Below are positions 27,909 through 30,473 of a stretch of DNA of 64,000 bases, in pieces. The stretch is from Burkholderiales bacterium (GTDB lineage Bacteria > Pseudomonadota > Gammaproteobacteria > Burkholderiales > Ga0077523), in contig JALHMS010000004.1 of the NCBI GenBank assembly GCA_022843925.1, positions 49,086 through 113,085 of the forward strand. Reading direction: 5' to 3'. How positions within the stretch are numbered: the first letter of the stretch is position 1; every line of letters starts with the position of its first letter. Made by a program: the position numbers and the translations under genes. The notes under the pieces are model-generated. The model saw nothing but the letters and a program-made list of their open reading frames with translations, was not told the origin of the DNA and did no database searches.

Positions 27909-27984
27909 GCCGCTGTAGCTCAGTTGGTAGAGCAGCGCATTCGTAATGCGAAGGTCGCCAGTTCGATTCCGGCCAGCGGCACCA
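27909..27984 (+). tRNA. thrW: tRNA-Thr (anticodon CGT)
   Basis: A 76-nt cloverleaf: acceptor GCCGCTG/CAGCGGC, D-arm GCTCAGTTGGTAGAGC, anticodon loop TTCGTAA with CGT at 27942-27944, T-arm GCCAGTTCGATTCCGGC, discriminator A and an encoded CCA at 27982-27984. It reads ACG threonine codons. Confidence 0.97.
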
Positions 27985-28443: not shown

Positions 28444-29592
28444 GTGAAGATCACCGACATCCGCATCCATCCGCTGCGCACCCCTCTCGAGACACCTTTC
28501 GCATTCTCCCAGGGCTGGGTGCGGCACCGCTCGTCGACGATCGTCGAGGTGATCACGGACGACGGCATCACCGGCTGGGGCGAGGCGTTCGCCCAGGGCC
28601 TCGAGCCGCCGCAGATCGCCGCCGCCGTCATCGATTCGGCGCTGAAGCCGCTCGTCATCGGCGCCGACCCTCTCGATACGGAGGTGCTTTGGCACCGCAT
28701 GTACCACGCGACCCGTGACTACGGTCGCAAGGGCTCGGTGACCGCTGCCATCAGTGCGATCGATCTTGCACTCTGGGACATCGCCGGCAAGGCGCACGGC
28801 GTTCCGGTGCACAAGCTCCTGGGTGGCGCCTTCCGCACGAAGGTGCAGGCGTACGCGACCGGCTTCTACCGGATCTCCGGGCAGGGCGAGGCTGCACGCC
28901 TCGCCGATGAGGCGCTGGCGCACCACGCTGCCGGTTTCCGCGCGATGAAGGTGAAGCTGGGCTACGGTCTGCGCGACGACATCGCCGTGATGGCTGCCAT
29001 CGGTCGCGCGATCGAGGGCAAGGGCATCACGCTCATGGTCGATACCAACCACGCGTACGGTGTCGGAGATGCGATCCGCCTCGGTCACGCGCTCGCGGAG
29101 TACAACCTCCGGTGGTACGAGGAACCCGTGGCGCCGGAGCACATCGCCGGCTATCGGGAAGTGCGCAGCCGCGTGACGATGCCCGTGGCAGGCGGGGAGA
29201 ACGAGCATACGCTCTACGGCTTCCGCGATTTTCTCGGGGCCGGTGCCGTCGACATCGCGCAGCCGGATCTCTGTTCCGTCGGCGGGTTCACGGCGTGTCG
29301 GCATGTCATGGCCCTCACGCAGGCCCATGGTGTGCAGGTGAACCCGCATGTGTGGGGCTCGGCCATCGCCCAGGCCGCGTCGCTCCAGCTCATCGCCGCG
29401 GTGCCCGTCGCGCATCACTCGGTCTTCGCCGAGGAGCCGATCTTCGAGTACGACCGTTCCTCGCATCCCTTCCGTCAGCATCTCGTGCGTGAGCCGGCTG
29501 CGCAGGTGGAAGGGTGGATCGACATTCCCACGCGGCCCGGTCTCGGCGTCGAGGTCGATCGCGCGGTGCTCAATCGCTACCGGGTGTCGTGA
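28444..29592 (+). CDS. Mandelate racemase / muconate lactonizing enzyme-type enolase
   Basis: A 382-residue member of the enolase superfamily with GTG start after CGGGAG. The barrel carries the KVK base motif (MKVKLG, near residue 167), metal ligands in VDTNHAY, EEPVAP and GGENEH, and a catalytic His in QVNPHVWGS. The mandelate racemase subgroup removes a proton alpha to a carboxylate and most members dehydrate acid sugars or racemise. Substrate cannot be told. Probably co-transcribed with the preceding small gene. Confidence 0.82.
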   Translation: MKITDIRIHPLRTPLETPFAFSQGWVRHRSSTIVEVITDDGITGWGEAFAQGLEPPQIAAAVIDSALKPLVIGADPLDTEVLWHRMYHATRDYGRKGSVTAAISAIDLALWDIAGKAHGVPVHKLLGGAFRTKVQAYATGFYRISGQGEAARLADEALAHHAAGFRAMKVKLGYGLRDDIAVMAAIGRAIEGKGITLMVDTNHAYGVGDAIRLGHALAEYNLRWYEEPVAPEHIAGYREVRSRVTMPVAGGENEHTLYGFRDFLGAGAVDIAQPDLCSVGGFTACRHVMALTQAHGVQVNPHVWGSAIAQAASLQLIAAVPVAHHSVFAEEPIFEYDRSSHPFRQHLVREPAAQVEGWIDIPTRPGLGVEVDRAVLNRYRVS

Positions 29593-29694
29593 ACGGCCTG
29601 CTTTTGGTGCGATTGCCTGGGAAGCGCACAGCAGCGGGGCCGCTGAGATGGGTCGGGTGATGTCCAGCCCTTTGATTCGAAAAGGATGATTTGA

Positions 29695-29710
29695 TGGCAC
29701 GCGCGTTGCA
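29695..29710 (+). promoter_or_regulatory. Consensus sigma54 (-24/-12) promoter
   Basis: TGGCAC-GCGCG-TTGCA matches the RpoN consensus TGGCAC-N5-TTGCW at every defined position, with the -24 GG (29696-29697) and -12 GC (29708-29709) 10 bp apart. The start point would be near 29720. Upstream, GTGCG (29607-29611) and CGCAC (29625-29629) form an inverted repeat at about -112 to -90, a suitable distance for an enhancer-binding protein. The next coding gene lies beyond a strong terminator. Confidence 0.72.
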
Positions 29711-29719
29711 ATAACTGCT

Positions 29720-29810
29720 CTCGGTGACTGACGGTGCTCCTTGTGGAAGCCGCTGGTCCACCGAGATCCTCCGTGACTTTCGGCCCGCCGTTCGGCGGGC
29801 CGTTTTTTTT
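29720..29810 (+). ncRNA. Candidate sigma54-dependent small RNA, about 90 nt
   Basis: Between the sigma54 promoter and the terminator there is no plausible open reading frame. The predicted 5' end forms a stem, CTCGGTG (29720-29726) with CACCGAG (29759-29765). A single-stranded stretch ATCCTCCGTGACTTT follows; its CCTCC could pair with Shine-Dalgarno sequences. The terminator hairpin and eight T close the RNA, the layout of Hfq-type sRNAs. I do not recognise it as CrcZ, NrsZ or another named sRNA. The existence of the transcript is inference. Confidence 0.5.
29781..29810 (+). terminator. Strong intrinsic terminator
   Basis: CGGCCCGC (29781-29788) pairs with GCGGGCCG (29795-29802) around a 6-nt loop, followed directly by eight T (29803-29810). 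It would end any transcript from the sigma54 promoter and from the enolase-family gene. Confidence 0.92.
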
Positions 29811-29903: not shown

Positions 29904-30473
29904 ATGATCGAACGCCTATTCGAACGCGTCCTCTGGAACAGCAGATTCGTCGTCGTGGTCGCCGTCGTGGCGAGCATGGCCGCGGCGATCGCCGTCTTCT
30001 ACATCACGACGGTGGATGTCTGGTACGCCATCGCGCACATCATCCACTACGCCGATCCGTCGCTCGAGGCCGAGGCCCGCAAGGCGTTGCACGACGACAC
30101 GGTCACGCACATCGTCGAGGTCGTCGACGGCTACCTCCTGGCAACCGTGATGCTCATCTTCGCCCTCGGTCTCTACGAGCTGTTCGTGAGCGACATCGAC
30201 GACGCCCATGGCTCGCGGGCCTCGAGCAAGATTCTCGTGATCGAGACGCTTGACGATCTGAAGACGCGGCTCGCCAAGGTGATCCTGATGATCCTGATCG
30301 TGAAGCTGTTCGAGCATGCCGTGAAGCTGAAGCTCACGAGTGTCCTCGACCTGCTGTATCTGGGCGGCTCGATCGCACTCGTCGGTCTGGCCTTGTACCT
30401 GACGCACGCATCCGAGGCCCACGGCGAGTCGCCGTCCGGAAGCGCCGACGGCGGTGGGCCGAAGTCTCACTAG
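29904..30473 (+). CDS. YqhA / UPF0114 family membrane protein
   Basis: A 189-residue inner-membrane protein. Four hydrophobic segments are seen: VVVVAVVASMAAAIAVFYI, YLLATVMLIFALGLYELFV, VILMILIVKLFEHAVKL and LLYLGGSIALVGLALYLTH. The block GLYELFVSDID...ILVIETLDDLKTRLAKVILMILIV is the UPF0114 signature. Function of the family is unknown. It has its own promoter and is convergent with the next small gene. Confidence 0.85.
   Translation: MIERLFERVLWNSRFVVVVAVVASMAAAIAVFYITTVDVWYAIAHIIHYADPSLEAEARKALHDDTVTHIVEVVDGYLLATVMLIFALGLYELFVSDIDDAHGSRASSKILVIETLDDLKTRLAKVILMILIVKLFEHAVKLKLTSVLDLLYLGGSIALVGLALYLTHASEAHGESPSGSADGGGPKSH

Follow-up and report, generated by a model that had tools for sequence, protein, structure and literature searches.

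In a 64,000-nucleotide stretch of a Burkholderiales bacterium genome (assembly GCA_022843925.1, contig JALHMS010000004.1), referred to below as the window, a gene of the enolase superfamily and a yqhA gene are separated by a compact unit that combines two NtrC-type sites, a sigma54 (RpoN) promoter and a predicted small RNA (sRNA) with a 5' hairpin, an exposed pairing core and an intrinsic terminator (Table 1). An earlier note on this DNA had proposed an orphan sigma54-driven sRNA at this position from the letters alone; its observation is confirmed and its interpretation is partly supported by the analysis described here. The unit was compared within a genus set of 12 genomes that includes its own (G000, a 5.57-Mb assembly), and counts out of eight refer to the genus loci with an intact sRNA block, namely those of G000, G001, G002, G003, G005, G006, G007 and G008.

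Table 1 Features at and around the predicted sRNA gene, numbered from the first letter of the window
Feature	Position	Strand	Remarks
Upstream NtrC-type site GCCTGCTTTTGGTGC	29596-29610	+	Centre about -118 from +1; binding predicted
Downstream NtrC-type site GCACAGCAGCGGGGC	29626-29640	+	Centre about -88 from +1; 8/10 to GCACC-N5-GGTGC
sigma54 (RpoN) -24/-12 promoter TGGCACGCGCGTTGCA	29695-29710	+	Sole TGGCAC-N5-TTGCW match in the window
Predicted small RNA, about 90 nt	29720-29810	+	Both ends predicted
5' hairpin, 46 nt	29720-29765	+	Outer stem CUCGGUG/CACCGAG
Conserved pairing core GAGAUCCUCCGUGACUUU	29763-29780	+	GAG forms the stem's 3' foot
Unpaired stretch AUCCUCCGUGACUUU	29766-29780	+	From the RNA fold
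Intrinsic terminator	29781-29810	+	9-bp all-GC stem (29781-29802), 4-nt loop, then T8
Enolase-superfamily gene (mandelate racemase/muconate lactonizing enzyme)	28444-29592		Upstream of the sRNA unit
UPF0114 (YqhA) gene	29904-30473		Downstream of the sRNA unit
tRNA gene	27909-27981	+	Sole Rfam match at threshold in the window

The RpoN consensus TGGCAC-N5-TTGCA had been placed correctly, and no second match to TGGCAC-N5-TTGCW occurs on either strand of the 64 kb, nor any match in 100 shuffled versions. The GG-N10-GC of the -24/-12 element is present at all eight homologous loci, 63–70 nt ahead of the core, and the usual distance to the -12 element predicts a +1 at 29720 or 29721. The strong hairpin and eight T of the earlier note likewise hold, as a stem of nine GC pairs that forms the sole terminator detected between 29000 and 30500, a region in which shuffles average 0.6. 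The terminator stem recurs in 8/8 homologues with changes on both sides at four of its nine pairs. The locus shows the sequence hallmark of the class of sigma54-dependent sRNAs, a GG-N10-GC suitably spaced before a terminated non-coding unit.

Upstream of the promoter the earlier note had described an inverted repeat, GTGCG-N13-CGCAC. The repeat is indeed present at 29607–29629, but its spacing varies among species between 13 and 14 nt; a single palindromic operator was therefore rejected, and the arms fit better as the facing halves of two NtrC-type sites. These lie 30 bp apart with their strong halves towards each other. The NtrC consensus is of the GCACC-N5-GGTGC type, to which the upstream site, at 7/10 by hand count, contributes a perfect right half (GGTGC) and a weak left half. 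The most conserved upstream elements are TTNTGGTGCG, which belongs to the upstream site and is kept at all eight loci, and, 13–14 nt further on, the GCAC of the downstream site, invariant in 8/8; in G001 the downstream site is a perfect GCACC-N5-GGTGC. The glnA promoter of the same genome, TGGCATGGAATCTGCA (glnA being identified by its glutamine synthetase domain), carries two sites at an equal 30-bp spacing and in a matching layout. NtrC scores above the TIGR01818 cut-off in all 12 genus genomes, while RpoN and Hfq are each above cut-off in 10/12. In G000 the sRNA lies on contig C4, and ntrC and glnA on contig C5.

As a separate observation, the sole other strict sigma54 consensus in the G000 genome (contig C3, 310815–310830, L057) stands immediately 5' of a conserved gene and has equivalents at L050, L052, L064, L066 and L075. 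We take this gene to be a member of the circularly permuted ATP-grasp family of nitrogen-type operons; a Pfam scan of 70 of its residues gave no match. Another strict sigma54 site in the genus precedes a gene with a Glycos_trans_3N domain, and GGTGC/GCACC elements occur at similar distances upstream of the sigma54 sites of both genes.

Conservation of the -24/-12 element and the stem in close relatives was one of the points on which the earlier note had staked its proposal. The whole block, comprising enhancer, -24/-12, hairpin, core and terminator, is kept in 8 of the 12 genus genomes and always follows the same enolase-superfamily gene (8/8 loci). The suggested search for the block upstream of yqhA was also borne out, that gene lying downstream at 6/8 loci (G000, G003, G005, G006, G007 and G008, in the last about 5 kb away on contig L047, which is taken to be that of G008); it was not found downstream at G001, where the contig ends, or at G002. 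A DNA search of G000 and 40 relatives (E<=0.001) matched nine of the 41 genomes, these being G000 itself, seven of the 11 others of its genus and one relative from the order with the terminator only. A covariance model built from the eight loci matched nine genus genomes, the ninth being a relic in G010 (L018, also L044). The relic lies directly behind the enolase-superfamily gene, with yqhA downstream, and has retained the terminator and a core with two changes; promoter, enhancer and 5' hairpin are gone. The model found no sRNA in G004, G009 or G011 (79%, 92% and 64% complete), and weak second matches within the genus (L019–L021, 22.6–33.4 bits) were dropped as unrelated. Across 399 genomes of the order (E<=0.01) 30 had matches, the nine of the genus and 21 others with weak matches of 25–33 bits at 22 places; the core is absent from all 21 extra-genus loci inspected (L022–L042). 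At a stricter E<=5e-4, G000 alone matched among 369 genomes of the class. Nothing convincing was found outside the genus in the order and class searches. An exact scan of named genomes for the core returned seven contigs titled Betaproteobacteria, Burkholderiales, Rhodocyclaceae or Pseudomonadota, all metagenome-assembled, of which six are intact and one is the G010 relic.

The predicted RNA folds to -46.2 kcal/mol, against -30.3 (standard deviation 3.2) for shuffled sequences, a z of -5.0. The 7-bp stem reported earlier (29720–29726 with 29759–29765) is present as the foot of the 46-nt hairpin, whose outer stem is mostly conserved and whose inner stem and loop are variable. The CCTCC stretch, said to be unpaired and able to bind Shine-Dalgarno (SD) sites, does fall within the unpaired part of the fold; the core that contains it is conserved and complementary to most leaders of amtB, the ammonium transporter gene. 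The core consensus GAG(A/G)TCCTCCGTGACTT, also written GAG(A/G)UCCUCCGUGACUU, is nearly invariant in the genus, with one substitution in one of the eight genomes. With the whole structure applied to the alignment, the share of paired cells is 90.8%, compared with at most 46% when it is slid, a percentage that leans towards the structure because the structure was derived from the same sequences. Double-changed cells number 25, against 10.5 in shuffles (none of 500 as high) and at most five in slid versions, and the alignment indicates that the stems are kept by paired substitutions.

This pattern of conservation also bears on what kind of RNA the unit would encode. Relatives among the sRNAs with sigma54 promoters include sponges, and a GGA in the apical part of the G000 hairpin would be in keeping with a protein-binding RNA of the CrcZ or RsmZ type rather than a base-pairing one. 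However, the apical sequence is not conserved, GGA is absent in G008 and G007, and the conserved part is the unpaired anti-SD core, so that we regard a sponge as very unlikely. A short coding transcript for a small peptide is the least probable of the explanations considered. The earlier statement that no reading frame lies in the unit stands in so far as there is no ATG, starts are not shared and lengths vary; it fails in so far as GTG and TTG frames run through, crossing the core in the same frame in 7/8 homologues. G001 has no in-frame start there, and the core-crossing frames that start upstream range from 13 to at least 100 codons with starts that differ among homologues. Open frames were rejected on these grounds as the cause of conservation, and the variation of the stems through paired changes likewise speaks against a peptide.

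Candidate targets were sought in the 12 genus genomes with two patterns. The first, TCACGGAGG-N(3-11)-ATG, gave 81 sites against 18 for the reversed pattern; 58 of the 81 start open frames that reach 60 codons or extend past the locus. Among these frames, close orthologues (76% identity or more) were shared by more than two genomes for the ammonium transporter alone, which was identified by Pfam PF00909 and occurred in G005, G007, G008 and G009. The amtB leaders of G000, G006 and G001, which were outside this discovery set, carry GGAGGATCT(C) and pair with the opposite side of the core. The second pattern, GGAGGATCT-N(2-10)-ATG, gave 62 sites against one for its reverse (23 with open frames that reach 80 codons or extend past the locus), and among orthologue groups amtB alone was recovered from three genomes (G000, G001 and G006). 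The target-search frames also yielded close-relative pairs and a PHB-depolymerase-like pair (G004, G005).

Duplexes with the amtB leaders were ranked against a background of 583 crude gene starts from 0.87 Mb of G000 sequence, against which the G000 leader was scored directly. The same G000 starts, not their own, served as background for G001, G002, G003 and G006–G009, while 325 starts of its own genome were used for G005; the G009 values use an assumed consensus core. With the 18-nt core, the starts scoring at least as well as amtB numbered none of 583 for G009, two each for G000, G006, G001 and G008, nine for G007, 13 for G002 and 212 for G003. The G005 amtB was the best of its 325 starts both with the 18-nt core and with the unpaired 15 nt alone. 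Contiguous pairs with the 18-nt core number 12 in G005, 10 in G000 and G006, nine in G001, G007, G008 and G009, and five in G002 and G003, giving 9–12 in seven of the nine leaders (six of the eight sRNA-bearing genomes). With the unpaired 15 nt the runs are 9–11 in four leaders, seven in three and five in two. G007, G008 and G009 then have 15, two and two starts at least as good as amtB, and the clade of G005 and G007–G009 would be expected to pair well unaided. The amtB tree splits into two clades that differ in pairing register. The G005 core shows an A-to-G change that is matched by a U-to-C change in the amtB leader of the same genome, and this accounts for the run of 12 there; with the other core, pairing of the G005 leader shortens to 10 nt and its energy weakens from -25.6 to only -18.9 kcal/mol. 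Conversely, the G000 leader paired with the G005 core drops from 10 to six contiguous nt, its energy moving from -21.5 to only -21.3 through other pairs.

An amtB of this orthologue group is present in all eight sRNA genomes and in G009; it was not found in G010, which holds the sRNA relic, or in the incomplete genomes G004 and G011. NtrC-type sites before amtB are perfect (GCACC-N5-GGTGC) in G000, G001 and G006 and near matches in G003 and G005, and none was found in G002, G007, G008 or G009. When the 400 bp ahead of each start were scanned for sigma54 sites under relaxed criteria, no site was found at any of the nine amtB genes. In G002 (contig C14, L319) and G003 (contig C26, L320) the sRNA gene lies about 6 kb from amtB, yet complementarity is weakest there.

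Our results support a model, to which we assign a probability of roughly 0.6, where the unit is the gene of a trans-acting nitrogen-limitation sRNA that is driven by NtrC and sigma54 and blocks ribosome sites, the best-supported target being amtB. When nitrogen is short, phosphorylated NtrC on the two upstream sites would activate sigma54-RNA polymerase at 29695–29710, giving an RNA of about 90 nt with its 3' end at 29810. The 5' hairpin and the terminator would leave the core AUCCUCCGUGACUUU exposed to pair with the SD region of selected mRNAs, the Amt/AmtB leader being the strongest case, and such pairing would block translation, probably with Hfq. The earlier note had judged this RNA to look different from the sigma54 sRNAs that answer nitrogen status. 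The opposite is suggested by the glnA-like NtrC-type sites, by NtrC in 12/12 genomes and by an ammonium transporter as the top recurrent candidate target.

Several observations weigh against this model of an NtrC-driven sRNA acting on amtB. At the level of the promoter, strict sigma54 sites (TGGCACR-N4-TTGCW) are as frequent as the reversed pattern across the 12 genus genomes (26 versus 26), with two in the G000 assembly versus five for the pattern read backwards, and sigma54 sites with upstream NtrC-type sites number 10 against 24 in the reversed control (0.92 Mb). RpoN was also not found in G008, a genome that carries the sRNA and five strict sigma54 sites, although an assembly gap is probably responsible (91% complete). 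As the reversed pattern is equally frequent, the sigma54 string by itself is no proof across the genome, and it is conservation at this locus that carries the case. The lack of enrichment would suit a chance sigma54 match ahead of a terminator belonging to the enolase-superfamily gene, with no separate RNA; the terminator starts 188 nt past the stop codon of this gene and could end its transcripts, a role that the G010 relic may have. Nevertheless, promoter, upstream element and core are kept in eight genomes at near-fixed spacing with variable sequence between them, which makes a chance match highly improbable. The structural evidence has its own soft points: pairs with a double change number 11 versus 8.0 in shuffles (a value reached by 20 of 500), and the count of further pair types is 22 versus 21.7 (reached by 278 of 500).

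Further points against the model concern the target. The reversed pattern is a weak control in the target searches because it mimics no real ribosome sites, and since the amtB genes fall into two clades they represent about two independent cases, not seven. The G000 amtB forms seven contiguous pairs with the unpaired 15 nt, with which 80 of 583 starts score at least as well in G000 and in G006 and 25 in G001; pairing in these three genomes would appear to need the three bases of the stem-foot GAG to open. The G002 and G003 leaders seem to pair poorly either way (124 and 410 starts at least as good with the 15 nt). G009 has the amtB site, but the sRNA was not found there. Finally, lowering an ammonium transporter is not what one would most simply expect of an RNA made under nitrogen limitation.

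A related reading, which we consider rather unlikely, keeps the sigma54-driven anti-SD sRNA and gives it another enhancer-binding protein, or a wide range of targets, with amtB as one perhaps incidental member. Most species have a poor left half in the upstream site, and the NtrC model makes 63–65 matches in 9/12 genomes, many of them other response regulators. Although pairing in either amtB clade involves mainly one side of the core, the whole of it is invariant, and further targets are therefore likely and probably hold the rest in place; the G000 amtB is moreover not outstanding with the unpaired 15 nt alone. Starts matched in single genomes include a DUF1989 gene (G000), Peripla_BP_6 genes (G000, G005) with a distant relative in G011, and sucA (G002), and none of the DUF1989, Peripla_BP_6 and sucA candidates was shown to recur as an orthologue. 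The substrate-binding-protein starts with TCACGGAGG (L140 in G000, L094 in G005, L086 in G011; Peripla_BP_6 in the first two) are 24–40% identical, a loose family rather than an orthologue group. The ribosome site of sucA in G002 (contig C38; L116, L322) shows complementarity with the core over TCACGGAGGAT, paralleling the control exerted by GlnZ (see below). As a conserved target sucA was rejected, standing out in G002 alone of 10 genomes with the gene, the G001 entry being uninformative as it started away from the gene start. Set against both an alternative activator and broad targeting are the identical two-site layout of the glnA promoter in G000 and the finding that amtB is the sole close orthologue group in at least three genomes in both searches.

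At gathering scores the unit matches no family in Rfam 15. Below threshold, suhB and anti-hemB matches cover its 3' part or most of it. The best of these is to RF00519, the suhB family that includes MmgR of Sinorhizobium, at 27.5 (L001), 28.0 (L003) and 28.2 bits (L002) against a gathering score of 41, the remaining five of the eight loci having no match at E<=0.5. MmgR is reported to be under positive NtrC control (a study cited in PMC9170634). The unit also falls short of RF02278, the Betaproteobacteria toxic sRNA family (18.6 bits, threshold 50). Its member S17 (bdhR1), also a short sRNA of betaproteobacteria, is described as carrying stretches that complement ribosome sites, many of which belong to transporter genes (PMC11722255). 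S17 thus has the ribosome-site complementarity that is predicted for our unit, but is made from a sigmaA promoter with RNase E processing according to the same account, in contrast to the sigma54-type promoter here. Separately, L022 in another family of the order (G148, contig C2, 114499–114576) has a hairpin with a terminator and a UCUCCUCC loop that reaches 30.4 of the 50 bits required for RF02278 and may be a divergent anti-SD sRNA.

Among sRNAs tied to nitrogen, NrsZ of Pseudomonas aeruginosa is described as RpoN- and nitrogen-dependent, processed and encoded downstream of ntrBC (as cited in PMC9731577), whereas our unit lies between the enolase-superfamily gene and yqhA on a contig other than that of ntrC. 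NrsZ is not among the Rfam matches listed for the unit and is set apart by gene position, not by direct sequence comparison. GlnZ of Enterobacteriaceae, as presented in the same source, is cut from the glnA 3' untranslated region, pairs upstream of the start region in an Hfq-dependent manner and represses sucA and the nitrogen transporter gene glnP, the latter as a proposed negative feedback (PMC9731577). The unit differs in having its own sigma54-type promoter and predicted SD pairing rather than deriving from the glnA 3' untranslated region. NfeR1 (alpha-r14) of Sinorhizobium has an exposed CCUCC-type anti-SD motif and is wired to NtrC (PMC10746234). Its anti-SD core is common to both RNAs; however, according to the account available, each of its three hairpins carries CCUCCUCCC, a sigma54 signature is absent and NtrC acts as a repressor (PMC10746234), so that hairpins, promoter and the presumed sign of NtrC control all differ. 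In its proposed action the unit would resemble GlnZ and NrsZ through the NtrC/RpoN arm, and NfeR1 and S17 through the anti-SD core. Gene position separates it from NrsZ and GlnZ, and covariance score from RF00519 and RF02278, which places it, on present comparisons, outside all families tested. It would represent a new RNA family within the known class of NtrC/sigma54 sRNAs. No bacterial circuit linking NtrC, an sRNA and amtB was found in the literature covered, which left out most subscription journals. The nearest case found comes from the archaeon Haloferax, in which an RNA antisense to amt1 is described (PMC5852579), and the available part of a cyanobacterial study presents no such sRNA-amtB pair (PMC13362535).

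The unit would add an RNA family that lacks an Rfam 15 match at threshold to the sRNAs linked to sigma54 and NtrC, in betaproteobacteria whose named records carrying the RNA are metagenome assemblies only. A more specific possibility, which we advance tentatively, is that this family is genus-specific and places amtB under NtrC at two levels, through sites before the gene and through the translation-blocking sRNA. Were this the case, the two-level control would form a feed-forward loop acting in RNA to limit or time the ammonium transporter, and the function of the RNA and the transporter would have been lost together in G010. GlnK gates AmtB, and the sRNA would then provide an RNA layer beside this gating. 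The model predicts that a nitrogen-limitation sRNA controls an ammonium transporter mRNA via its ribosome site, for which the core and leader changes in G005 would represent a natural compensatory change between species.
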